Part shown: positions 26,811-40,116 of the stretch, one piece after another
Layout of the letters: every line of letters starts with the position of its first letter
How positions within the stretch are numbered: position 1 is the first letter of the stretch
Source: Acidithiobacillus sp. HP-2
Lineage (GTDB): Bacteria; Pseudomonadota; Gammaproteobacteria; Acidithiobacillales; Acidithiobacillaceae
Reading direction: 5' to 3'
DNA: 50,040 nt
Assembly: GCF_015100155.1 (NCBI RefSeq)
Contig: NZ_JACKZA010000019.1
Span: forward strand, 1-50,040
Position numbers and translations under genes: made by a program
The notes under the pieces: generated by a model
Seen by the model: only the letters and a program-made list of their open reading frames with translations
Told to the model about the DNA's origin: nothing
The model's database searches: none

Positions 26811-27545
26811 TTATTGATCAACAAGCCGATAACCAAAACCTTTTTCCGTAAGCAGATACTGTGGAGCTTCCGGATCGTCCTCGATTTTTTCCCGTAACCG
26901 TTTGATATAAAGACGTACATAATGTTTCTGTTCCATACTGTGTATACCCCATATGGATGTAAGGATGACCCGATAGGACAGTACCCGTCCCTGATTTATG
27001 GCAAGAAGATGTAACAGCTCATATTCCTTGGGCGTCAAATCAATCACCTTCCCTTTTTTACGCACACAGTGGGTAGGATCATCAATTTCCAGTTCCCCAA
27101 TAACCCAACAACGCGGGTTATCTTCCAGCACCCCTACCGGTTTTTTGCGCAGATGGGCCCGCAAGCGGGCAAATAATTCACCGATGGTAAAGGGTTTGGT
27201 CAAATAATCATCAGCGCCTTCATCCAGGGCCTGCACTTTGTCCATTTCATGTCCTCGGGCAGAGATGACCACAATGAGCGGCTGTTCTCCACTCTGAGTG
27301 CGTAGACGACGAATCATGCTTTGACCATCACCATCGGGCAAGCCCAGGTCCAGAAGCAGAAGTGCAAAGCAATGCCCTTGTTGTAATTGATATTTTTCAT
27401 AGGCTTTCCAGGCATCTCTGAGGGTACGTTCCCAATGCAGACAATAACCGGGTTCCCGGTCCATGGCAGACTGCAGAAATGCGCCAATGCCCGGATCATC
27501 TTCTACCAGAAGAATATCTATGTTTTCTTTATGGTTATTAGGCAT
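26811..27545 (-). CDS. kdpE: KdpE, response regulator of the Kdp potassium system
   Basis: 244 residues. Receiver domain (about 10-125): acidic pair VEDD, phosphorylated Asp in LLLDLGLPDGDG, and Lys in DDYLTKPF. An OmpR-type winged-helix domain follows (about 145-243; LTPKEYELLHLLAINQGRVL, then VRLYIKRLREKIEDDP). Phosphorylated by KdpD, it activates the kdp promoter. It starts 3 bp after the kdpD stop, and both are divergent from kdpFABC. The likely targets are the ATTTATA arrays at 30429 and 35699. Confidence 0.95.
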   Translation of the reverse strand: MPNNHKENIDILLVEDDPGIGAFLQSAMDREPGYCLHWERTLRDAWKAYEKYQLQQGHCFALLLLDLGLPDGDGQSMIRRLRTQSGEQPLIVVISARGHEMDKVQALDEGADDYLTKPFTIGELFARLRAHLRKKPVGVLEDNPRCWVIGELEIDDPTHCVRKKGKVIDLTPKEYELLHLLAINQGRVLSYRVILTSIWGIHSMEQKHYVRLYIKRLREKIEDDPEAPQYLLTEKGFGYRLVDQ

Positions 27546-27548
27546 TTA

Positions 27549-30290
27549 TCACTCCTCTTCGGAGGGAATAAGGGGTTCCGCTTCGCGTGGGATGGCAAAG
27601 CAGAATACCGCACCATGCACCGCAACACGGTTACGCACCCAGATACGCCCATTATGGAGTTCAATAATGGCTTTGCAGATGGCCAAACCCAGGCCACTTC
27701 CACCCAGGCCCACCGGGGGCTTGACCTGACTGAAACGACCAAATATTTCCTGCTCACGGCCAGAGGGAACGCCGAATCCATGGTCGATGACGCAAACGAC
27801 AATCTCTTTTTCATCAGCATAGGCTTCCAGTTCAATGTCGCGGCCCGGTGGACTGTAACGACAGGCATTTTCAACCAGATTGGTCAGTACCTGCACAATC
27901 AGCTGGGGATCAACATGCAGGAGTGGCAGATTTCTGGCGATTCTGGTTTGAAACGGATGCTCTGTACAAAGAGATTTTACCTGATCGCGCGCGCTGACCA
28001 ATAAATCTTCCAGCGGGGTCCATTCCTTCTGAATCTGGAGGCGCCCGGATTGGAGTGCAGCCATATGTAAAATACGTTCAACGGTATGCTCCATTTTTTC
28101 CGTTTGTTGGCGGATGTTTTCCAGAAGTAACCGATCTTCAGAGCTGAGTCCCTGGGCATTGCGCTGCAAAGTGGTTGCCGTACCCAGGACACCCGCAAGG
28201 GGGGTTCTCAAATCGTGCGATACGGCACCCAACAGGGCATTTTGTAGTTGTTCGACGCGCAAGCGCACATCCGCCTCCGTACGCTGCAAGGAAGCTTGAG
28301 CTGAATCCAGAGCGACAGCGATCAGGCGCACCACCGTTTCCAGAAAACGTAGCCAGTCAGTCGGGGCGCGGCGTAAATCAAGGTCGGCCAGCATGACCAC
28401 GCCCAAAGAGCGCTCATTGATTATCATGGGCATGAAAAGTGCCGGAAGATCGGCCAGGGTATTGGTACTCATTCCCGCATTTTTCCTGTTCTGGAAGCAC
28501 CAACGCGCAGCAGCCTGGAGTTTTCGCTGTAGTGAATCTGTCTGATCTAGTTCTGGAAACTGTTTGAGTGGGCCTTCAGATTTTTCGGTGGCGGGTAGCC
28601 AGAATGCCACAGAAATGCCCAGTGTCTGCTCCAGTTTTTCGATACTCGCGTTGAGAATCCCTTCTACCCCACGCGCACTACTCAACACCTGAACCAATTG
28701 GTAGAGGTTACGTGCCCGGCGCTCACGAATACGGGCCATCAACTCCTGTTCCCGGGAACGGGCGACCAACTGGCTGATCAAGAGAATCAGGGACAAAATC
28801 AGCGCGAAATAAGCCAGTGAACCCAAAGTCGTGGGCAAGCCCTTACCCAGCCCGAAAGAGTAATAGCTGACCGCAGCGGTTATAAATGTAATCAGAGATG
28901 GCCAGCGTCCATAGAGCAGTGCGGCACCCACCGCGCCCAGCATGTACAACATGAAAATGCCCGCAAAGCCCAGGTAGGCCGCCAGCATCCAGGCCAGACC
29001 GCTTAACCCCAGTCCCAGTAGAGCGCCAAAAATAAAATGGCGATTGCGGATATGGCGCCGTAAAGGTGAATTCATGACTCCAAGGTATTGCTGATTTCGC
29101 AAACGCTGATCTTCAGAAATCGGTTTTTTGGCAGGAATGGGGTGAATGATGATATCCATGCTGCGCTCACTGTTCAGAAGATGCGCAGTCAGTGATCCGG
29201 GCCACCACCACAAGAATTTCCGAAGACCTTGCGCCTGACCCAGCACAATCTGGGTCACGTCACGCAAACGTGCGTAGGCCAGGATTTCCGCGCCGATGTT
29301 CACGCCAGTCAGGCGAGCTGTTTCTGCACCCAGACTTTCGGCAAGGTGCAGATGATTCCAGATCCACGCCTGGGTTTCAGCCTTTTGCATCAGACCGCGT
29401 GGGGTATCTACGTGAATGACCAGCCAATCCGCCCGTTGTGCCGTAGCCAGATGATAAGTAGCCCGGACCAGATGTTCATCCTCGGGACGCCCACTGATTG
29501 CCACCAGCAAACGATCCCGGCTTCCGCCACGGCGTTCCTCCTCAGGATTTTGTAGCTGAAATTGGCGCAACTCCAAATCGACGCGGTCTGCCGCCAGACG
29601 CAGTGCCAGTTGCCGCAGCGCGATCAGATTCCCTTTGCGAAAAAAGTGCGACATCGCCCGTAAGCCACGATCTCCCAGATACACTTTGCCCTCTTTGAGG
29701 CGCTGCATCAGGTCTTCATCGCTGATATCCACCAGAACGACCTCATCGGCCTCCTGGATCAGGTGGTCGGGTACCGTTTCCTGTACTTTTATGCCCGTAA
29801 TCTGCTGGACCACTTCATGGGCACTTTCCAGATGCTGGACATTAATGGTGGTGGCTACTGAGATACCGGCATCCAGCAGCTCTTCCAGATCCTGCCAACG
29901 CTTTTTGTGACGCGATCCCGGTGCATTGCTGTGGGCCAGCTCATCCAGCAAAAGTAGCCCGGGACGACGACTGAGGGCGGCGTCCAGATCAAATTCCTCC
30001 AGCACCACATTTTTATAGGGCAAATGCTGGCGTGGCAGCATAGGGAGCGCATCTGCCAAAGCCTTTGTCTCATGGCGTTGATGGGTTTCAACGATCCCTA
30101 TCAACACGTCTGCCCCTTTAGCCATCTCCTGCTGCCCGAAACGCAGCATGGCGTAGGTTTTTCCCACGCCTGGTGCGGCGCCAAAGAAAATTTTCAGTCG
30201 ACCACGCTGTTGTTTGCTTTCCTCCTGCTGGACCTGGGCCAGCAAGGCATCAGGATCAGGGCGGCCATCGCTGCGATCATGATCGTCCAT
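27549..30290 (-). CDS. kdpD: KdpD, sensor histidine kinase for potassium
   Basis: From ATG 30290 (MDDHDRSDGR) the protein has 913 residues (E. coli 894); the frame is open to a TTG at 30377. Order: KdpD N-terminal domain with Walker A GAAPGVGKT at 37-45, a USP-like domain (about 225-350), four membrane helices (about 370-480), a GAF-like region, the HisKA box with SHDLRTPLAGVLG, then the ATPase with NLVENACRYSPPG, DHGFGVP and GSGLGLAICKAI. It senses low K+ or high ionic strength and phosphorylates KdpE. All catalytic boxes look intact. Confidence 0.95.
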   Translation of the reverse strand: MDDHDRSDGRPDPDALLAQVQQEESKQQRGRLKIFFGAAPGVGKTYAMLRFGQQEMAKGADVLIGIVETHQRHETKALADALPMLPRQHLPYKNVVLEEFDLDAALSRRPGLLLLDELAHSNAPGSRHKKRWQDLEELLDAGISVATTINVQHLESAHEVVQQITGIKVQETVPDHLIQEADEVVLVDISDEDLMQRLKEGKVYLGDRGLRAMSHFFRKGNLIALRQLALRLAADRVDLELRQFQLQNPEEERRGGSRDRLLVAISGRPEDEHLVRATYHLATAQRADWLVIHVDTPRGLMQKAETQAWIWNHLHLAESLGAETARLTGVNIGAEILAYARLRDVTQIVLGQAQGLRKFLWWWPGSLTAHLLNSERSMDIIIHPIPAKKPISEDQRLRNQQYLGVMNSPLRRHIRNRHFIFGALLGLGLSGLAWMLAAYLGFAGIFMLYMLGAVGAALLYGRWPSLITFITAAVSYYSFGLGKGLPTTLGSLAYFALILSLILLISQLVARSREQELMARIRERRARNLYQLVQVLSSARGVEGILNASIEKLEQTLGISVAFWLPATEKSEGPLKQFPELDQTDSLQRKLQAAARWCFQNRKNAGMSTNTLADLPALFMPMIINERSLGVVMLADLDLRRAPTDWLRFLETVVRLIAVALDSAQASLQRTEADVRLRVEQLQNALLGAVSHDLRTPLAGVLGTATTLQRNAQGLSSEDRLLLENIRQQTEKMEHTVERILHMAALQSGRLQIQKEWTPLEDLLVSARDQVKSLCTEHPFQTRIARNLPLLHVDPQLIVQVLTNLVENACRYSPPGRDIELEAYADEKEIVVCVIDHGFGVPSGREQEIFGRFSQVKPPVGLGGSGLGLAICKAIIELHNGRIWVRNRVAVHGAVFCFAIPREAEPLIPSEEE

Positions 30291-30428
30291 GCTGGGCTCG
30301 TGGAAATTGAGAATGCCTGGCCATCGAGAAAGTCCCTGTTTTCTGTGCTCTGGCGTTGAGCATAAGCGAAATTTCAAAGAAGACCAAGAAAACGCAAAAT
30401 TATGACAAAAATGGTGTCTTTGTAGACA

Positions 30429-30468
30429 ATTTATAGATGATTTATACGGAATTTATATGGAATTTATA
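30429..30468 (+). promoter_or_regulatory. Four ATTTATA half-sites, 11-bp period: proposed KdpE box of the kdp operon
   Basis: ATTTATA occurs at 30429, 30440, 30451 and 30462, each exactly 11 bp apart, so all lie on one face of the helix. The E. coli kdp operator is also T/A-rich with TTTATA. A -10-like TATAGA follows at 30505-30510, placing the array near and above the -35 position as expected for an OmpR-type activator. The same layout precedes the glutamate 5-kinase gene at 35803. Regulation by KdpE is inferred from position and pattern. Confidence 0.72.
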
Positions 30469-30543
30469 GATCACGAATGGTTACGCTTCCAGGGTGACAG
30501 TACCTATAGAATTCAGAGCAGTCTGAAACAGAAGGAGCAGGTT

Positions 30544-30636
30544 ATGATTGTTATTTATCTGTTTATTATTATTGCCTTTTTTATGGCATCCATGGGGATG
30601 GTACACCTTCTCGATAAACTCAGGAGTATCAAATGA
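30544..30636 (+). CDS. 30-residue membrane peptide upstream of kdpF
   Basis: AAGGAG lies 6 nt before the ATG of a 30-codon frame, MIVIYLFIIIAFFMASMGMV then HLLDKLRSIK: one membrane helix with a basic end. Its stop overlaps the kdpF start as ATGA (30633-30636). It is the first gene after the proposed KdpE-controlled promoter. Comparable unnamed peptides precede kdpF in some other kdp operons, from memory. A role in stabilising the complex is possible but unproven. Confidence 0.65.
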   Translation: MIVIYLFIIIAFFMASMGMVHLLDKLRSIK

Positions 30637-30725
30637 CTGCCTTCATATGGATAGGACTGGGTCTGGGTGCCATGCTTTTTGTCTACCTGCTGGCTTTTCT
30701 GATTAACCCGGAGAAATATTTATGA
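30633..30725 (+). CDS. kdpF: KdpF, small stabilising subunit of the K+-transporting ATPase
   Basis: 30 residues, one membrane helix, ending [12 protein letters not shown], the typical KdpF end (ALLNPEKF-like). In E. coli KdpF stabilises the KdpABC complex. It is coupled on both sides by ATGA overlaps: with the preceding peptide and with kdpA at 30722-30725. Confidence 0.82.
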   Translation: MTAFIWIGLGLGAMLFVYLLAFLINPEKYL

Positions 30726-32476
30726 TTTCCACGCTGCTACTAACCACTACTCTCCTGGTGGTAACCATTCTTCTGGGCATTCCACTCGGTGTCTATATGC
30801 ATCGGGTTTACGCAGGGGAGAGGTTTTGGGCCTCCCGGCTGCTTGGGCCTGTAGAGCGTCTTACCTACCGCCTGATCGGTACGTCTCCGGAACGGGAGAT
30901 GGACTGGAAACGCTACGCCTTGGCCATTCTCCTGTTTAACCTGGCAGGAGGGCTATTTTTATACATATTACTCCTGTTGCAAGGCCACCTCCCATTTAAC
31001 CCCATGCATTTTTCCGGCGTAGCACCGGGTTCTGCCTTCAATACGGCAGTCAGTTTTATCACCAATACCAACTGGCAGGATTATTCGGGCGGCTCCACCA
31101 TGAGCTATCTGTCCCAGATGCTGGGTATAACCGTACAAAATTTTCTTTCGGCAGCCACGGGTATCGTGATCCTACTGCCGATCATTCGTGCTTTTGTCCG
31201 TCATAACACCAAAAACCTGGGCAATTTCTGGGTGGATATGACCCGGACCGTGCTTTATGTCCTGATCCCCTTGTCGGTGATTTTTTCCTTGATATTGATG
31301 CAGCAAGGGGTGGTTCAGACCTTGAGCGGGGCCATTCATGCGGACATGGTTGCACCCTTCACTTCGGGGGGTAAAACCATTCTGCAGCAAGTCATCCATA
31401 TCGGACCGGTGGCCTCCCAGGAATCCATCATGATGCTGGGCAATAACGGCGGCGGTTTTTTTAACATGAATGATGCCCAGCCTTTTGAAAATCCCACCGG
31501 ATTGACCAATTTTCTGGAAACAATGGTGATGATTCTCATCCCGGTAGGCTTGGTTTTTCTGTTTGGACAGATGACCAAAGCCAAAAAAACCGCCTGGGCG
31601 ATTCTGGTCTCCATGCTGATTCTGTTTATCCCGCTGACCCTGGTCAGCCAGCACTTTGAACTGGCGGGAAATCCGATTTTTCATCAACTGGGTGTAACCC
31701 AGGCCAACCATGCGGCGCTTGCCGGAGGTGGCAATATGGAAGGCGTGGAAGACCGCATTGGCGCAGGGGCATCGGCCCTGTTTGCAACGGTGGCTACGGC
31801 GACTTCCACGGGTGCGGCCAACAACGCTTATGACTCACTCATTCCGCTCAGCGGCGGTATCAATCTATTTTTGATGCAACTGGGTGAAGTTGTTTTCGGA
31901 GGCGTCGGTTCCGGCCTTGCCAGTTTCCTGGCCTTCATGATTTTCGCCGTGTTTCTGGGTGGGCTGATGGTCGGACGCACTCCGGAGTTTTTGGGAAAAA
32001 AAATCGGCGCGTTTGAAATCAAAATGGTCTCCCTATCCATTTTGGTCATGCCCCTGCTCGTTCTCATTGGTACCGCCATTGCTGCCACAACCGTAGCGGG
32101 GCGCGCCGGTGTTTTCAATCCGGGTGCACATGGGTTCAGCGAAATGCTCTATGCCGTGACTAGTCCCGCCAACAATAACGGCAGCGCTTTTGGTGGACTC
32201 AGCAATGATACTCGCTTTTACAACCTGTTAACCGGGATGTGTATGTTGTTTGGTCGTTTTTGGGTGTATCTGCCGCTGCTGGCATTGGCGGGGGCTCTGG
32301 CAGAGAAAAAGAAAACACCCGCAGGATCAGGCACTTTAGCCACGCATACGCCTATTTTCATCGGCTTGACCGTGGGTGTCATTCTCCTGGTTGGCGCACT
32401 GAACTTCTTTCCGGCACTGGCGCTGGGACCGATTGCAGAGCAGTTGGCACCGGTCAGTCATGTCATGACGCACTAA
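30722..32476 (+). CDS. kdpA: KdpA, potassium channel-like subunit
   Basis: 584 residues (E. coli 557), about ten membrane helices, a member of the SKT family of four-fold pore proteins. Selectivity-filter loops are visible: [57 protein letters not shown] and [18 protein letters not shown]. It binds and passes K+ with high affinity, driven by KdpB. The start overlaps the kdpF stop; kdpB follows 13 bp on. Confidence 0.97.
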
Positions 32477-32489
32477 AGGAATCCTGACG

Positions 32490-34556
32490 ATGGAATCTAC
32501 GCATAAACATGAGGTAAAACCGATTGTCTGGAAAGACCAGAGCAAAGGGGCACTCTGGGACAGCTTTAATATGCTTTCGCCCCGGGTGCAAATGCGCAAT
32601 CCAGTCATGTTCGTCGTCTATATCGGCTCCTGGTTGCTGTTGGCTCTGTTTTTCCATGATCTGATTGCGCGTAATGGCGAAGCCCTATTCACCGGGGTCA
32701 TCGATCTCTGGCTCTGGCTGACCCTCATTTTCGCGAATTACGGAGAGGCCCTGGCCGAAAGGCAGGGGGAAGCCCAGGCGAGTAGCCTGCGGCAAAGCCG
32801 TCATGAAATGGTGGCTAAAAAATTGGCTAAATCCGAACGCAATGCGGCCTACCAGGAAGTTCCCGGAGTGAGCTTGCGCACGGGTGACGTCATTCTGGTG
32901 GAAGCCGGTGATTTTATACCGACAGACGGTGAAGCTATCACCGGTGTGGCGGCTGTCGATGAAAGTGCCATCACCGGAGAAAGTGCGCCGGTTATTCGGG
33001 AAGGCGGTGGGGACCGTAGTGCGGTAACCGGCGGCACCCGCGTGATCTCGGACTGGCTGATTATAAAGGTGACTCAGGAAGCGGGAAATACGTTTCTGGA
33101 TAAAATGATCAGCATGGTCGAGGGGGCTGCGAGACGCAAAACCCCCAATGAAGTAGCGCTCAGTATTCTTCTGGTCTTTTTGACCTTGGTGTTTCTGGTC
33201 GTGACCGTGACGATTTACCCGTTTTCCTGGTATAGCGTCCATTACGCCAGTCATTCCGGCTCCGTCATTAGCCTGCCGGTCCTGATCGCCCTGCTGGTGT
33301 GTTTGATTCCCACAACCATCGGCGCACTTTTGCCAGCCATTGGCATTGCTGGCATCGTCCGCCTCTTGAAAGCCAATGTCGTAGCGACTTCCGGTAGGGC
33401 CATAGAAGCTGCCGGGGATGTAGACATACTCATGCTGGATAAGACAGGCACCATTACTTACGGCAATCGTTCGGCGGCTGCTTTTTATCCCGTTTCCGGA
33501 ATATCCGAGGCACAACTCGCTCAAGGTGCACGTCGGGCCTCCCTGGCGGATGATACCCCTGAAGGCAAAAGTATTGTGGCATTGGCCTTGAAGCATTTTC
33601 CCGATCAGCAGGAGTCGCTGCCCACGGATGCCAATTTGATTTCCTTTACGGCCGAAACCCGTATGAGCGGGGTGGATTGGGAGGGACAGCAGCTGCGCAA
33701 GGGTGCGCCCGATTCCATGAAAGCCTGGATAAAAGATTTGCAGGGAAGCTGGCCGGAAGGCTTGGATGCCATTATCGAGAAAATTGCCGCAGGGGGCGCG
33801 ACACCGCTGGTGGTATGTTCTGGTGCCCAGGTGCTCGGGGCGATTGAGCTGCGGGACATCGTCAAAACCGGAATCAAGGAACGCTTTGCTGAGTTAAGAG
33901 AAATGGGCATCCGCACCGTGATGGTGACGGGAGATAATCCCTTGACGGCTGCTGCCATTGCGGCGGAGGCCGGTGTCGATGATTACCTTGCGGAAGCCAA
34001 ACCGGAAACCAAACTTGCGCGTATCCGTCAATATCAGAGTGACGGATATATGGTAGCGATGACGGGAGATGGCACCAACGACTCGCCAGCTCTCGCACAG
34101 GCCGATGTGGGGCTGTGCATGGCCAGTGGTACCCAGGCCGCGCGAGAAGCTTCGAATATGGTGGATATGGACTCCAACCCGACGAAATTGCTGGATATTG
34201 TCCGGATTGGCAAGCAGTTGCTGATGACTCGTGGGAGCTTGACCACCTTTAGTGTCGCCAACGATGTTGCCAAATATTTTGCCATCATACCGGCGGCTTT
34301 CATCTCTACCTATCCACAATTATCGGCCCTCAACATCATGGACTTGAGTTCGCCGGATACTGCGATCATGTCTGCCGTGATTTTTAATGCACTTATTATT
34401 CCCATTCTGATTCCTCTGGCATTGAAAGGCGTCAAATTCCGGGCGGACAGCGCGCAGAATATTTTGCGCCGGAATGTCTGGATATACGGATTGGGAGGCA
34501 TCATTGCGCCTTTCATCGGCATCAAGTTGATCGACCTGTTACTGACGGTTTTATAG
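32490..34556 (+). CDS. kdpB: KdpB, P-type ATPase subunit
   Basis: 688 residues (E. coli 682). TGES, the actuator loop, lies at 162-165; its serine is the site of inhibitory phosphorylation in E. coli. The phosphorylated Asp is D317 in [17 protein letters not shown] and [19 protein letters not shown] mark the P domain. It hydrolyses ATP to power K+ uptake through KdpA. All catalytic motifs are intact. A clear GGAATCCTGACG leader precedes ATG 32490. Confidence 0.97.
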
Positions 34557-34567
34557 GAGGATTCCAC

Positions 34568-35248
34568 ATGAACAAGCCACTCGAAAACGCTTCGAGACCG
34601 AATGCACAGGATGGGGATCATCAAGGAGTACGGGCAGCGGTGATGGGAGATCTGAAAAGCACTTTACTGCTTTTTCTCCTGTTGGTGGTGATAACCGGGC
34701 TGATTTACCCCTTAACGATGACGGGCGTCGGACAATTGCTGTTTCCTCATCAGGCAAATGGCTCGCTGATTAAAGAACATGGGCGCGTGGTGGGTTCTGC
34801 ATTGATTGGACAGTATTTCCGCGAACCGGAGTACTTCTGGAGTCGTCCCTCCGCGACTTCGCCGATGCCCTATAACGCAGCGGGTTCAAGTGCTTCCAAT
34901 CTGGGGCCGAACAATCCGGTATTGGCACAACATGTGGCTGCCCGCGTCAAAGCGCTCAAGGCTGCGGACCCTGCAGAAAAAGGCCCGGTTCCGGTGGATC
35001 TGGTTACCTCCTCGGCGAGCGGACTGGATCCGGACATCAGTATTGCAGCCGCCCGCTATCAGATACCACGCATCGCCAAGGCTGGGGGCATCAATCCGAC
35101 GGTTTTACAGCAACTGGTTCAGAAAAATACCCACTATCCCTTGCTGGGTTACATCGGAGAACCGGTGGTCAATGTCCTGAAACTCAATCTGGCTTTGCAT
35201 GCGCGCTATGCTCAGAAGCATCCTGAAGCAAATCCCGTGACCCATTAA
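34568..35248 (+). CDS. kdpC: KdpC, chaperone-like subunit of the K+ ATPase
   Basis: 226 residues (E. coli 190); the extra length is mainly an N-terminal polar extension before the single membrane helix ([20 protein letters not shown]). The periplasmic part carries family blocks [51 protein letters not shown] and [17 protein letters not shown]. It helps K+ binding by the KdpAB complex. GGAGG precedes the ATG. A strong terminator follows 24 bp after the stop. Confidence 0.96.
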
Positions 35249-35271
35249 TCCGGGTTTTTTGCAGCTTGTTC

Positions 35272-35299
35272 CTGCAGGGTTATTTCCCTGCAGTTTTTT
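35272..35299 (+). terminator. Rho-independent terminator of the kdp operon
   Basis: CTGCAGGG (35272-35279), loop TTATTT, CCCTGCAG (35286-35293), then six T. The stem is a perfect 8 bp and the T-run follows at once. It lies 24 bp after the kdpC stop and closes the operon, so the genes after it need their own promoter. Confidence 0.92.
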
Positions 35300-35393
35300 A
35301 ATCGCTTTATGACAGCTTCCACCTGAATTTTGTCTAGATTCAGCGGAAAAGCAGGATGGAAAGGAAACCCTAGACATTAAGGAGAACTCAATA

Positions 35394-35597
35394 ATGACTA
35401 CGCTGAAAGAGAGATTGCTTGAGGCAGAATGGGCTGGTTATCACTGGGCCATGGAACATCCTGATGCTACCAGAGAAGATGTAGAGAATGCCTGTGACAA
35501 CTATTATCCCCAAGCCATATCCGGGGTGCTGGCTTATGCCTTTGAAAGAGGCCGGGCAATGGCCCGTGAGGGGAAAACACCCGAACCGATGGAATGA
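35394..35597 (+). CDS. Small acidic hypothetical protein
   Basis: 67 residues, soluble and rich in Glu and Ala, no membrane helix: MTTLKERLLEAEWAGYHWAM opens it. AAGGAG lies upstream at the expected distance from the ATG. Not recognised. It stands alone between the kdp terminator and the second KdpE-like box. Codon use looks ordinary for the region, supporting a real gene. Confidence 0.6.
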   Translation: MTTLKERLLEAEWAGYHWAMEHPDATREDVENACDNYYPQAISGVLAYAFERGRAMAREGKTPEPME

Positions 35598-35698
35598 CAC
35601 GCACCGCAGTGAATGATTTTATATCCTATGGGAAGTCTTAAAAAAGGCATTGATGCGTTAGACGCGCATGCATCGCTCATTTCTGATTAATTCCGCAT

Positions 35699-35738
35699 TT
35701 TTATATAAACATTATACAACATTTATATGGAATTTATA
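35699..35738 (+). promoter_or_regulatory. Second four-half-site array: proposed KdpE box of the glutamate 5-kinase gene
   Basis: TTTTATA (35699), CATTATA (35710), ATTTATA (35721) and ATTTATA (35732) sit at an exact 11-bp period. The last two with their spacer share 21 consecutive bases with the kdp array. A -10-like TATCAG begins at 35775, 43 bp after the last half-site start, exactly as TATAGA does at kdp. The GGAGG of the gene at 35803 lies 13 bp beyond. Control by KdpE is inferred. Confidence 0.68.
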
Positions 35739-35802
35739 GATGCATCTCGGATAACCTTGCGGTGTTGAAGAAAATATCAGTTTTTGACGAATGGAGGTTT
35801 TG

Positions 35803-36780
35803 ATGATCAATAAACTGGTTGAAACCACAGCCAAGCTTTCTACATTACCCAGCCGCACCACGCTGCAGAAAAAGTCGCAGCGATGGATCATTAAAATTGG
35901 CAGCAGCTTGCTCACTTCGGAAGATTACCAACTGAATCTGGTGGCCATCCGACATTTTGTAGAACAGATATTACGCCTTCGGGAACGGGGCATAGAAGTG
36001 GTCCTGGTGTCTTCTGGGTCCGTCAGTGTGGGCAAAGGACATTTGGGTTTGGCCGGAAAAACACTGCCAGCCGAGCAAAGGCAAGCCGCTGCCAGCGTCG
36101 GGCAGGCAGCCCTGATGCATGCCTATGAAAATCTTTTGGCACAGGAAGGAGTGCATTGCGGGCAAATACTGCTGACCCAGGACAATTTCAAGGATCGTAA
36201 GCGCCGTAAAAGAACCTTATCCGCCATTAATATGCTTATGAAAATGAATATGTTGCCGATATTGAATGAAAATGATGCCCTTGCAGATCATGAAAACCAG
36301 TTTGGCAACAACGATCATCTGGCCGCAGTCATCAGCCGGTTGTGGCATGGGGATTTGATGGTCCTATTGACGGATCAGGCGGGCTTGTACGATGCAGATC
36401 CGCGTATTCAGGTTGACGCCCAGATGATTCAGGAAGGCATGGCTGGTGATCCGCGCTATGAAGAGATGGCGGGGGGAAGTGGTACTGCTGTGGGTACCGG
36501 CGGTATGCGGACTAAAGTCGATGCCGCAGCCTATGCCGCTGTTTCAGGCACAACGACAGTGATTGCCAGTGGGCACATTCCTGACGTACTGCTGCGATTA
36601 CAACAGGGTGCATGTTTGGGGACTTTTTTGCGCTCTGAAAAATTCGACCAGATGTGGCTCAAGGCACGTCGGACCACCTTACAAAAAACGACGTATTCCT
36701 TACTTGGAGTGGCTGTGAAATTGTCCAATACGAATTCCAAGCAGCACCGTTTTTATAATTCCTCATATTGCTACAGATGA
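35803..36780 (+). CDS. Glutamate 5-kinase-like protein lacking the PUA domain
   Basis: 325 residues from ATG 35803 (GGAGG 5 nt upstream). Residues about 25-270 are an amino-acid kinase domain of ProB type: WIIKIGSSLLT, VVLVSSGSVSVGKGHLGL, ILLTQDNFKDRKRR, PILNENDALADHENQFGNND and GTGGMRTKVDAA. ProB makes glutamyl-5-phosphate for proline synthesis. The usual C-terminal PUA domain is replaced by about 55 unrelated residues ending SNTNSKQHRFYNSSYCYR. No proA follows; a porin gene does. With the KdpE-like box this suggests a stress-induced paralogue. Confidence 0.82.
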   Translation: MINKLVETTAKLSTLPSRTTLQKKSQRWIIKIGSSLLTSEDYQLNLVAIRHFVEQILRLRERGIEVVLVSSGSVSVGKGHLGLAGKTLPAEQRQAAASVGQAALMHAYENLLAQEGVHCGQILLTQDNFKDRKRRKRTLSAINMLMKMNMLPILNENDALADHENQFGNNDHLAAVISRLWHGDLMVLLTDQAGLYDADPRIQVDAQMIQEGMAGDPRYEEMAGGSGTAVGTGGMRTKVDAAAYAAVSGTTTVIASGHIPDVLLRLQQGACLGTFLRSEKFDQMWLKARRTTLQKTTYSLLGVAVKLSNTNSKQHRFYNSSYCYR

Positions 36781-36802
36781 TATGCAATCAGGAGAAATAA
36801 TC

Positions 36803-37996
36803 ATGCTTCTGTGCTCGGTTCAAAAAAATAAAACGGTTTTTTTACGGCACCGTCTGATTGGTTCCGCTTGTCTGATGCTTTGTGGAATCGCGATTGCCGG
36901 CGTTGCCAATGCCAGTCCATTGACGTTACCCAACCCTTTGACGTTCTCTGCCGGACTATTGGGAAAAATTGACGTGCAAGGCATTGCCAGTGGCATGGCC
37001 TTCTATCAGGATAATCCTCAGGGGTCTCCAGGTACTTTGGGTGCCAAACGGGAGGGCGCTGATATCACCAATGGCATGGTGATTATCCAGAAAGAAAATG
37101 GCCCGATTCAGTTTGATATTCAAGCAGGGGCTTACAGCTTCCCTACGTTGGCTGCATCTATTCCCTCGGCATCTCGTAGTACCAGCGAGTTTGGTGCATT
37201 GCCCGTGGCTTATTTAAAAATTGTGCCATCATCAAATTTTTCAGTCGAAATTGGTCAATTACCGACATTGATCGGTGTTGAGGATGGATTTACCTACCAG
37301 AATATCAATATCGAGCGGGGCTTACTTTGGGATATGGAGCCCATCATCAGTCGTGGAATCCAGTTCAATGCCAGTGCAGGACCTTTAAGTGCCTCGCTTT
37401 CCTTGAATGATGGTTATTTTTCTAATCACTACAATGTCATGAGTGGATCCCTGAGTTACGCAATTAACGGTTCCAACACGCTCGGTTTTTACGCAGATGG
37501 GGCACTAGGAAAATCACGAACAACATCGAATGACTCTGCCTATAGTTCTTACGGTAACGAGAGCCAGATTTATGGTGTTGACTACGAATATAGTTCGGGT
37601 CCATGGGTGATTGAACCCTATTTCCAGTACATGCACACACCCAAGTCGACACATCTAGGCATACCGCACGCATTCGATAATTATGGCGGCGCTCTATTGG
37701 CCGACTATAGCTTTACCCAAACAATCTCTTTGGGTGCGCGTGCCGAGTATCTGGAAGTGGGCGGAAAAACGGGTGAGGGGCTTAACGCCATCGCTTCATC
37801 ACTGACTGACCTCCCCGCCGATTCCCACGCCTGGTCCATCACGCTGACCCCGACCTATCAGAGTGGCGGGTTCTTCGCCCGGGCTGAACTTTCCTATGTA
37901 GCTGCTTCCTGCCCCAAGGGTGATGGCTTTTCGGGAGCAAATGGTACAAACACGACACAACTGCGCGGCATGGTCGAAACCGGCTTCATGTTCTGA
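36803..37996 (+). CDS. Outer-membrane beta-barrel porin (bbp2/OmpL-like)
   Basis: 397 residues from ATG 36803, chosen for the AGGAG 8 nt upstream; an ATG at 36782 also opens the frame. A signal peptide (RHRLIGSACLMLCGIAIAGV, cleavage near ANA-SPL) leads into a protein of alternating amphipathic strands with many Gly, Tyr and Ser. It ends in FMF, an aromatic C-terminus typical of outer-membrane barrels. Blocks such as SVEIGQLPTLIGVEDGFTYQ and NIERGLLWDMEPI fit the putative beta-barrel porin-2 family. It starts 22 bp after the kinase gene and is probably co-regulated. The solute is unknown. Confidence 0.8.
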   Translation: MLLCSVQKNKTVFLRHRLIGSACLMLCGIAIAGVANASPLTLPNPLTFSAGLLGKIDVQGIASGMAFYQDNPQGSPGTLGAKREGADITNGMVIIQKENGPIQFDIQAGAYSFPTLAASIPSASRSTSEFGALPVAYLKIVPSSNFSVEIGQLPTLIGVEDGFTYQNINIERGLLWDMEPIISRGIQFNASAGPLSASLSLNDGYFSNHYNVMSGSLSYAINGSNTLGFYADGALGKSRTTSNDSAYSSYGNESQIYGVDYEYSSGPWVIEPYFQYMHTPKSTHLGIPHAFDNYGGALLADYSFTQTISLGARAEYLEVGGKTGEGLNAIASSLTDLPADSHAWSITLTPTYQSGGFFARAELSYVAASCPKGDGFSGANGTNTTQLRGMVETGFMF

Positions 37997-38036
37997 AACA
38001 GCGTAATGATTATGGAAAATGGTCAAGGAGTTTCTC

Positions 38037-38390
38037 ATGATTGAATCGGTAAAAGTTTCCTCAGCGCTTTGTGCGAGCCTTGCTCTGCTCGCTGTCAGAA
38101 AACGCGCCTGGTCATTCGAAAGGCTTGGCCATGAACTGGGCGTAGAGGCAACGCTGATCAGAAAGAGTTGGCATCACCTCTTGGAAAATGCATGGCGTCT
38201 CTTTCCCGAGGAGAGATTGAGTAAGCACACCTGGCAACCAGACGCCAGCATCAAAGCAATGATTGCCCTGGCCGCCTGCAGGTATGGATCGGAGCAGATA
38301 AAGGCTGTTGCCCGACAATACGGGGTGCCTGTTCAACAAGTAAAATATTGGCGCCGTATTTTATTGTCTCGCGCCGCACAAGTCTTTTAG
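38037..38390 (+). CDS. Small HTH-containing protein, unknown
   Basis: 117 residues from ATG 38037, with AAGGAG 7 nt upstream. The C-terminal part (IKAVARQYGVPVQQVKYWRR) looks like a helix-turn-helix of homeodomain or transposase type. Another helical segment (FERLGHELGVEATLIRKSWH) may be a second one. It could be a DNA-binding regulator, or the relic of a transposase-associated protein. It follows the porin by 40 bp. Confidence 0.55.
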   Translation: MIESVKVSSALCASLALLAVRKRAWSFERLGHELGVEATLIRKSWHHLLENAWRLFPEERLSKHTWQPDASIKAMIALAACRYGSEQIKAVARQYGVPVQQVKYWRRILLSRAAQVF

Positions 38391-38414: not shown

Positions 38415-38846
38415 ATGTTGCCCTCATCAGGCCTCGATCTGAGTTTGCCCCGTTCAATTTTTCTATCGATCATTATCTTCATCCTTTTTTTGTTAATGCT
38501 TGGTGGCATTTACATGCTGTTTTCTTTTCATCACAAAAAGGCTTTGAGTCCGGCGATCAATGCACCGATGTTGAGCGACGAATGGTTTTCTGGATACGCC
38601 AGTGAAGCATTGAGCTCAACATCCCCCATTTTTGGTCGTTTGTTTGCACAGCCTAAAAAAGATGAAAACAAATGGATATTGTTAAAGAAAATCGATCAAC
38701 GGTTTTTATGGGTATGCACAAAAACGGCCAAAATGGGATTTTGGACATTAGATCTGGAAGGGACCCCTTTATGGAGAGAAGTGCCATTGGATCGATTAGC
38801 CTTGTCAGGATATTTGTGTGCGGAAAAAATACAAGATTTAAAATAA
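38415..38846 (+). CDS. Single-pass membrane protein, unknown
   Basis: 143 residues. One long helix (residues about 14-37, IFLSIIIFILFLLMLGGIYML) is followed by a basic HHKK and a soluble domain of 105 residues rich in Trp, Lys and Leu. Not recognised. The DNA is more A/T rich than the genes before it. It is the last gene before about 200 bp of A/T-rich non-coding DNA (38847-39060), where I see no feature, and then the IS30 element. Confidence 0.55.
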   Translation: MLPSSGLDLSLPRSIFLSIIIFILFLLMLGGIYMLFSFHHKKALSPAINAPMLSDEWFSGYASEALSSTSPIFGRLFAQPKKDENKWILLKKIDQRFLWVCTKTAKMGFWTLDLEGTPLWREVPLDRLALSGYLCAEKIQDLK

Positions 38847-39060: not shown

Positions 39061-40109
39061 TGAAGTGCAACACCTCTGGTCGAAGGCAGACGGAGGTGAG
39101 AGATGGCCAGAAAATACAGGCAATTGATGCCCGATCAGCGAAACCAGATACAGCGTGGATTGAATCAGGGGCTGAGTATTCGTGGCATTGCCAGGCAGTT
39201 GGGCCGAAGCCCTAGCACGATCAGTCGGGAGATTCAGCGAGGTCGTGTGGAAGAGACCTATGACGCCGTATGCGCTCGGGAAGAAGCGCAGAGGCGCCGA
39301 CGCAAGGGAGTCAGGAAGTTGACTGAAGGTTCGCCTTTAACCCTCGCGGTGACACACGCTATTCTGCAAAGGAAGTGGTCACCGTAGCAGATAGCGGGGA
39401 GGTTGCGGATGGACTATCCCGAAGACAAACAGTGGCACGTCTCTCATGAGACTATTTACCAGTTTATCTATGCCCACCCGGCGGGTGAACTGCGCAAGGC
39501 ATTGATTGCAGGGCTGCGCAGAGGGCACAGCAAACGCAAGCCCCGCACACGAGGTAAAGACCGTCGTGGCGGGATCACGAACATGCGTTCGATCCGTGAG
39601 CGCCCGGAGGAAGCACAAGCCCGCGAAGTACCCGGTCACTGGGAAGGCGACCTGATCAAGGGGGCATTCAATGCCAGTGCTATTGGCACGTTAGTGGATC
39701 GTAGCAGTCGCTTCGTCATCCTCGCGCGAGTGGAGGATGCTACGGCAGAGGCGATCCTGGAAAGCTTTACGCGGCGTTTGCGAACGCTGCCCAAGAGCTT
39801 CCGGCGAACGCTTACCTATGATCAGGGCCGCGAAATGGCTCGGCATCAGGAACTGGAGCGAAATACGGGCATACGTGTTTATTTTGCTGACCCACATAGC
39901 CCCTGGCAGCGTCCGACCAATGAAAATACGAATGGCCTACTGCGTCAGTATTTCCCCAAGGGCACGGACTTATCCGAATATTCACAACGGCGTTTGACTC
40001 AGGTAGCGGAGGAACTCAATAATCGGCCCAGGAAGTCCTTGGGATTCCGAACACCAGCCGAAGTGATGGCACAGCAAATCAGGCAGTTAAACAGCGGTGT
40101 TGCACTTCA
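39061..40109 (+). mobile_element. IS30-family insertion sequence (transposase interrupted)
   Basis: A 1049-bp element bounded by the 14-bp inverted repeats TGAAGTGCAACACC (39061-39074) and its exact reverse complement at 40096-40109. AA flanks both ends, a possible 2-bp target duplication. It inserted at the very 3' end of nudC. The transposase frame carries an amber codon, so this copy is probably not autonomous. Confidence 0.88.
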
Positions 40110-40116
40110 AACTTGA
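39103..40116 (+). pseudogene. IS30 transposase, in-frame amber at 39385
   Basis: Residues 1-94 hold the N-terminal HTH (LNQGLSIRGIARQLGRSPSTI). A TAG at 39385-39387 falls in the conserved block KWSP-x-QIAGRLR, where the family has Glu or Gln. The same frame continues after it with the DDE core: HWEGDLIKG (D), TLTYDQGREM (D) and NENTNGLLRQYFPKG (E). Without the amber the protein would be 337 residues, normal for IS30. The stop codon (40114-40116) lies outside the element. The second part has its own possible ATG at 39409. Confidence 0.88.

Follow-up and report, generated by a model that had tools for sequence, protein, structure and literature searches.

The 50,040-nucleotide stretch of Acidithiobacillus sp. 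HP-2 analysed here (contig NZ_JACKZA010000019.1, referred to as the window) carries two matched arrays of short direct repeats, one upstream of the potassium-uptake operon kdpFABC and the other upstream of a separate operon encoding a paralogue of glutamate 5-kinase and an outer-membrane porin. The best explanation for this arrangement is that both arrays are operators of the response regulator KdpE, which would induce K+ uptake together with the porin and a glutamate kinase insensitive to proline. We put the probability of this explanation as a whole at roughly 0.7, on the basis of comparisons among genomes of the family Acidithiobacillaceae.

Two half-site arrays in one genome

Array 1 (30429..30468, + strand), the putative KdpE-type operator of the kdp operon, is made up of four perfect ATTTATA half-sites starting at 30429, 30440, 30451 and 30462. 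Array 2 (35699..35738, +), the putative KdpE-type operator of the kinase/porin operon, contains two perfect and two degenerate half-sites (TTTTATA at 35699, CATTATA at 35710, ATTTATA at 35721 and 35732). Both arrays repeat with a period of exactly 11 bp and have in common a run of 21 identical bases, ATTTATATGGAATTTATAGAT; these features had been described in an earlier note made from the letters of the window, and the sequence confirms them.

For 13 kdp operons of the family, including that of the window, the best four-box stretch of the upstream region was used to train an 11-bp matrix. Array 1, which belonged to the training set, scores 57.2, and array 2, which lay outside it, scores 43.5; for each, 0/10000 shuffles were as good. 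Three tandem half-sites (up to two mismatches) are matched five times in the window, always inside the two arrays or at their edge, compared to 0.00 expected from 100 shuffles. A scan of the 3.2 Mb genome of the strain found nine matches to three tandem TTTATA boxes at up to three mismatches, of which five have none or one and lie in or at the edge of arrays 1 and 2, while four lie elsewhere with three. The reversed three-box control gave 21 matches at up to three mismatches (individual mismatch numbers not shown) and therefore only the low-mismatch class is informative; no further array with fewer than three mismatches was found in the genome beyond arrays 1 and 2.

A single exact pair of half-sites is near chance in this genome (four occurrences versus three for the reversed control) and is weak evidence alone. 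Over the 29 family genomes analysed there are 50 exact pairs, compared to 12 in the reversed control, and 48 of the 50 fall in arrays before kdp or before the kinase/porin module. The two outside (G003:70934 and G010:19250) have, by eye, transketolase and DNA methyltransferase genes as neighbours. A looser search for pairs, allowing two mismatches, was uninformative (137 matches, 177 in the control). The idea that the arrays are a chance product of A+T-rich DNA is ruled out by the 0/10000 shuffles together with the conservation described below.

Resemblance to the Escherichia coli KdpE operator

The half-sites and their 11-bp spacing match the published operator of E. coli KdpE, which consists of direct repeats TTTATA/TTTACA with 5 bp between them, the half-sites reported to be bound by the DNA-binding domain of that protein (PMC3264566). 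In E. coli K-12 we located TTTATA-N5-TTTACA upstream of kdpF, and the family matrix selects this site as the best in 300 bp (1/2000 shuffles as good). The region scores only as a two-half-site operator and not as a four-half-site array (-8.6; 158/1000 shuffles as good). The proposed reader of both arrays is encoded by kdpE (26811..27545, -), an OmpR/PhoB-type response regulator with receiver (Response_reg) and Trans_reg_C domains, encoded together with KdpD. Counterparts of the E. coli KdpE DNA-contact residues R193, R200 and T215 are kept in 11 KdpE proteins of the family aligned to that of E. coli. A link between a residue of the recognition helix (K or Q) and half-site type was considered and rejected, as the second kdp locus of genome G020 does not fit it.

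The window and the kdpFABC operator of E. coli thus have in common TTTATA-type direct repeats, the 11-bp period and the three contact residues. They differ in the number of half-sites (four in the window, two in E. coli), in promoter geometry, the presumed -10 element being nearer in the window, and in the second copy before another operon.

Conservation and joint drift of the operators

Among the 29 family genomes (g1 is the genus of the window, g2 the caldus-type genus, g3 and g4 two others), KdpA exceeds the cut-off in 20, and kdpB and kdpC fragments in G012 bring those with kdp to 21. An intact kdp-linked kinase is found in 12 of these 21 and in no others: eight of the window's genus (its own genome counted), two of g2 and two of g4. 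In the eight genomes without kdp, the identity and length of the kinase matches suggest housekeeping kinases (residues checked in part of them). A four-box array lies before the kinase/porin module in 12/12 genomes with an intact kdp-linked kinase, scoring +28 to +46, with 0/1000 shuffles as good in each. We thus found no relative that keeps the kinase and lacks the array, the case which the earlier note had named as damaging to its proposal. Module upstream regions were kept out of matrix training, although the sequence common to arrays 1 and 2 makes the test less than fully independent. Upstream of the two other glutamate kinase genes of the HP-2 genome, the best scores are -13 and -28, matched or exceeded by 305 and 29 of 1000 shuffles, respectively.

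The 541 kb of regions fetched from the relatives hold 36 arrays scoring above 20, of which 21 precede kdp and the other 15 the kinase/porin module, with none elsewhere; these regions were selected around kdp and module loci, and the genome-wide claim rests on the three-box scan of the HP-2 genome and the exact-pair scan of the family. Two further arrays at 19.7 precede the second kdp of G020 and a permease-proB1 operon of G018 (see below). The array keeps its place ahead of the module while gene order and half-site spelling vary between genera. In g2 the order is array-porin-s67-kinase (s67 being a small conserved gene); in G017 and G018 the array stands before the porin, the first gene of the module, and none was found immediately upstream of the kinase. 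The array precedes the kinase in G021 and lies 359 bp before it in G022, and no array was found upstream of the porins of G020, G021 and G022. In G007 and G011 an extra, diverged kdpFA copy (L042 15605-17439, -) lies beside the regular one, and both copies have an array of their own.

Compared with more distant congeneric species, the window shows 77–84% identity array against array and 14–39% identity in the flanks (ungapped). Half-site base 5 is A throughout g1 (kdp 56/56, module 44/44), T throughout g4 (kdp 16/16, module 8/8) and mostly T in g2 (kdp 3/4, module 8/8). When module half-sites were scored with kdp matrices of each genus, using part of the arrays (kdp/module: g1 3/3, g2 1/2, g4 3/2), those of g1 scored best with their own matrix (10.6 versus 6.8 and 3.7), as did those of g4 (12.0 versus 10.1 and 5.0), while those of g2 scored 8.3 with their own, 9.0 with that of g4 and 4.5 with that of g1. 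Kdp and module operators that drift together within unrelated flanks are the expected trace of one shared reader. Taken with the E. coli-like half-sites and the presence of the array in all 12 genomes, the identity between arrays supports the single regulon of K+ uptake, kinase and porin that the earlier note had proposed.

Probable promoter geometry

A probable -10 element, TACGCT (30482..30487, +), lies 20 bp past the start of the last half-site of array 1, and another, TAACCT (35752..35757, +), is found at the same distance in array 2. Counted from the start of the last half-site, TANNNT begins at exactly 20 bp in 25/25 arrays of the window's genus (14/14 kdp, 11/11 module), which represent 22 distinct downstream sequences, many of them related. 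Nine of the 11 module arrays of the genus read TACAAT, and TANNNT is also present at 20 bp in 2/2 kdp arrays of g3. The earlier note had instead pointed to -10-like hexamers starting 43 bp on; these exist (TATAGA at 30505, TATCAG at 35775) but are not conserved, being kept neither in the sister genome G015, with a kinase 97% identical to that of the window, nor at the kinase arrays of other species. The true -10 boxes are therefore probably 23 bp closer to the arrays than had been proposed.

With this spacing the last half-site would stand in place of a -35 box. The PhoB half-site at Pho boxes does likewise, and in class II promoters of this kind tandem 11-bp direct repeats replace the -35 box at a fixed distance from the -10 element. 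The window arrays would share this geometry, and differ in half-site sequence and signal.

A distinctive glutamate kinase

The kdp-linked kinase gene (35803..36780, +), whose start is preceded by GGAGG, encodes the third glutamate 5-kinase of the HP-2 genome (the other two at 51%) and is 97% identical to that of A. sulfurivorans RW2. It matches AA_kinase, and TIGR01027 with 262.1 bits against a cut-off of 186. It is followed by the porin gene (36782..37996, +; PF07642, 230.8 bits against a cut-off of 26.2). The description of a glutamate 5-kinase/porin operon given previously thus holds as far as the families are concerned and can be made more precise, the porin being of the BBP2 family and the kinase a special paralogue with an altered domain structure and sequence. 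A C-terminal PUA domain is found in only some glutamate 5-kinases; here it is absent from the window's kinase (AA_kinase only) and from 3/3 other kdp-linked kinases scanned, and present in both other glutamate kinases of the genome. In an alignment of 38 kinases, positions 147–150 of the E. coli enzyme read GNND in 12/12 kdp-linked copies (D148N) whereas the 26 others all read GDND, and position 107 is N in 8/8 kdp-linked copies of the window's genus and D or E in the other 30. The positions of E. coli K10, D137, D150 and K217 are unchanged, and K10, D150 and K217, which have catalytic roles, are present in 12/12 kdp-linked copies.

In E. coli ProB, either D107N or E143A is reported to end allosteric regulation, D148/N149 form the reported proline-binding motif, and D148, N149 and D150 are predicted glutamate binders (PMC5418603). 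The lack of a PUA domain, with D107N and D148N at positions of proline feedback, suggests that the kinase should keep glutamate flowing to proline even when proline is high. The feedback-resistant D107N form of E. coli ProB (PMC5418603) has Asn at the same position as the window's kinase, in which the residue is natural (in all eight genus copies examined) and accompanied by D148N and by loss of the PUA domain. Separately, the PUA-bearing ProB1 of the HP-2 genome (L064) and its orthologues have Ala at E. coli position E143 in 8/8 aligned copies of the genus; E143A, like D107N, is reported to abolish proline feedback (PMC5418603). Another comparison is offered by Bacillus subtilis, whose osmoadaptive ProHJ route uses ProJ, reported as a stress-induced glutamate 5-kinase paralogue beside ProB which is not feedback inhibited (PMC5425972). 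Both systems thus have a second glutamate 5-kinase paralogue beside a biosynthetic ProB, although the window's is linked to Kdp and a porin rather than to proline reductase and lies behind a KdpE-type operator, and it may or may not be of one lineage with ProJ.

A branch with support 93/98 sets the kdp-linked copies apart from the other kinases (long branches flagged), and dN/dS of 0.12–0.41 in six kinase pairs indicates purifying selection, the lowest pair having near-saturated dS. A class-wide search with the kinase matched 287/369 genomes. Of the best 30 loci, 28 have GDND and two GNND, the latter being the kdp-linked kinases of the window and of G018, so that among these 30 GNND was not found outside the family. 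A scan of genome contigs gave only A. sulfurivorans and a distant Hydrogenedentes ProB. A broken glutamate kinase in G026, which lacks kdp, was considered as a decayed kdp-linked copy, which is ruled out by its GDND motif and its site behind a permease gene.

Gene layout of the window

The genes kdpE and kdpD (27549..30377, -; KdpD domain 307.7 bits, HisKA, HATPase_c) point leftward from 30377, and array 1 lies between kdpD and the rightward series of a 30-amino-acid (aa) open reading frame (ORF), kdpF, kdpA, kdpB and kdpC. The hydrophobic 30-aa ORF, s30 (30544..30636, +), lies directly 5' of kdpF and has a tblastn match in 16/22 fetched loci holding the start of a kdp operon; it matched no Pfam or NCBIfam family, and is perhaps an unrecognised small Kdp subunit. 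KdpF (30633..30725, +) is assigned by its position before kdpA together with matches below cut-off to Potass_KdpF (E 9e-4) and TIGR02115 (E 8e-5), and kdpA (30722..32476, +) by PF03814 (E 2e-226). Both kdpB (32490..34556, +) and kdpC (34568..35248, +) are conserved with relatives, the A. caldus matches being annotated as kdpB and kdpC.

Beyond kdpC follow a terminator-like hairpin with a T tail (35272..35293, +), s67, array 2, the kinase, the porin and two small conserved proteins. The hairpin would separate the two operons, although the number of terminator-like sites in the region is not above chance (4 compared to 4.4 in shuffles). The small gene s67 (35394..35597, +) encodes a conserved 67-aa protein and is part of the module, its eight aligned homologues coming from four genera of Acidithiobacillaceae and lying in the kdp/kinase/porin neighbourhood; as a marker outside the family it gave a single weak 20-residue match in 367 genomes of the class. 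Two genes lie 3' of the porin in some relatives also. The first, h123 (38019..38390, +; tblastn matches in L036, L041 and L042), is a possible helix-turn-helix protein with weak MerR and IS66 TnpA matches, both below cut-off. The second, h143 (38415..38846, +; tblastn matches in L036, L042 and weakly L054), is conserved too; inspection by eye shows a hydrophobic stretch at the N terminus of its protein, which matched no Pfam or NCBIfam family. An integrase-core (rve) transposase gene lies downstream of the module at 39403-40116 and, if recently inserted, may limit the operon.

The caldus lineage

On megaplasmid mpAca1.1 of A. caldus ATCC 51756, the order is kdpABC-porin-hypothetical (s67)-proB (ACAty_RS14135 to RS14160), with an array between kdpC and the porin. 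G017, apparently the same strain, has a copy of the kdp-porin-kinase module that scores equally well, in this case on the large contig C1. In G017 and G018, both of g2, an array also stands before an operon of an amino-acid permease and proB1 (0/10000 shuffles as good in each; L136 6973, -, and L068 3480-3525, +), making this operon a possible third member of the regulon as judged from its upstream sequence. The permease gene is also present in G003, G022, G025, G026 and G027, where no such array was found.

Alternative explanations

Several observations weigh against co-induction of a proline-directed kinase with kdp by KdpE. Nine of the 21 family genomes with kdp (several of them drafts) have no intact kdp-linked kinase. 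It is truncated in copy a of G007, reduced to a fragment in G013, where array and intact kinase are both lost, and present as two remnants of 28 and 65 residues in G008, where these sit behind an intact array. In G020, s67 and the start of the porin follow kdpC and no array stands before them (214 and 533 of 1000 shuffles score equally well), and no kinase was found before the contig end. The promoter spacing is limited in range, TANNNT at 20 bp being absent in 6/6 arrays of g4 and 3/3 of g2 (it lies at 19 bp in two of the latter three). D107N is absent from the four kdp-linked copies of g2 and g4, and since D148 is also a reported glutamate binder (PMC5418603), D148N might reduce activity or change the substrate used. 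The operon has neither proA nor proC, so that the kinase would depend on those genes elsewhere. In A. caldus, finally, overexpression of proB1, proB2 or proC is reported to give no significant growth advantage under NaCl, and intracellular proline was undetected (PMC10599003). These findings speak against proline as a bulk solute there, although one of the genes may or may not be the kdp-linked one. The same study reports slightly more sulfate on overexpression of proB2 and proC, and added proline as the best of five solutes tested (PMC10599003).

Some of these points lend themselves to a different view of the enzyme, in which the arrays are KdpE operators and the kinase, with Asn for Asp148, uses another substrate or is a partner subunit modulating the housekeeping ProB. 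The restriction of GNND to all 12 kdp-linked copies and to none of the 26 others, the long branches, the lack of proA and proC in the operon and the undetected proline of A. caldus (PMC10599003) would all fit. However the counterparts of K10, D137, D150 and K217 are retained, TIGR01027 is matched well above its cut-off, and Asn at position 107 is known to desensitise a true glutamate kinase to proline (PMC5418603); we consider this view unlikely, though it deserves serious weight. Of similar standing is a programme for acid or membrane-potential homeostasis, with reversed potential maintained by K+, in which porin and kinase are accessories of K+ uptake and not osmotic. Kdp in these acidophiles is discussed as a means of acid resistance in the literature available to us. 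This view leaves a kinase with changes of the feedback-resistance type unexplained, and the logic of the arrays points only to KdpE, whose stimulus is K+ or turgor, hence we regard it too as the less likely course.

That a different OmpR/PhoB-type regulator reads the arrays would count against our explanation as a whole, and we judge it improbable. Other members of this group also use 11-bp head-to-tail repeats, and the window's regulator, for which KdpE is the best NCBIfam model, scores 175.4 bits, below that model's cut-off of 325. However array 1 lies between kdpD and kdpF, its half-sites are those of E. coli KdpE and the family matrix finds the E. coli site. Array 2 is very unlikely to be a passive, functionless copy of array 1 generated by duplication or gene conversion, since despite the 21 identical bases and a separation of 5 kb the flanks are unrelated, the array is kept in all 12 kinase genomes at varied distances and before varied first genes, it drifts with the kdp array by genus, and the module copy at another place in G007 carries one.

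Proposed mechanism and implications

Under KdpE control of both operons, K+ limitation or loss of turgor would lead KdpD to phosphorylate KdpE, two dimers of which would bind in tandem to the four head-to-tail half-sites of 11 bp. With the last half-site replacing the -35 box 20 bp upstream of the TANNNT -10 element, kdpFABC and the separate kinase/porin operon would both be switched on. The kinase would act as a dedicated stress glutamate 5-kinase, and K+-glutamate, which needs scarce K+, would be exchanged for the neutral solute proline, glutamate being the usual counter-ion of K+ and proline needing none, while the pump and porin would bring in what K+ is available. We tentatively extend this, at slightly less than even odds, to a K+-to-proline solute switch run by the KdpE of Acidithiobacillaceae, kept through rearrangement and operator drift, to which the caldus lineage may have added a second glutamate kinase and a permease.

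KdpDE appears in those parts of the literature examined as the regulator of one operon, kdpFABC. A comparison of Acidithiobacillia kdp clusters reports the same kdp genes and describes cluster forms by their context, and the portions available to us link no kinase, porin or operator to kdp (PMC8886135). Within the accessible literature on KdpE and kdpFABC, proline biosynthesis, porins, glutamate 5-kinase and Acidithiobacillus, we found no report of the link, although an earlier one is possible.

The genome comparisons favour a small and conserved regulon, one that would join K+ uptake to the committed step of proline synthesis and to the permeability of the outer membrane. Its kinase may be a natural counterpart of the feedback-resistant ProB enzymes used in proline engineering. 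Together, the 40-bp operator and a single enzyme distinguished by two residues would provide a handle on how acidophiles trade K+ for organic solutes, which may be relevant to salt tolerance in biomining.

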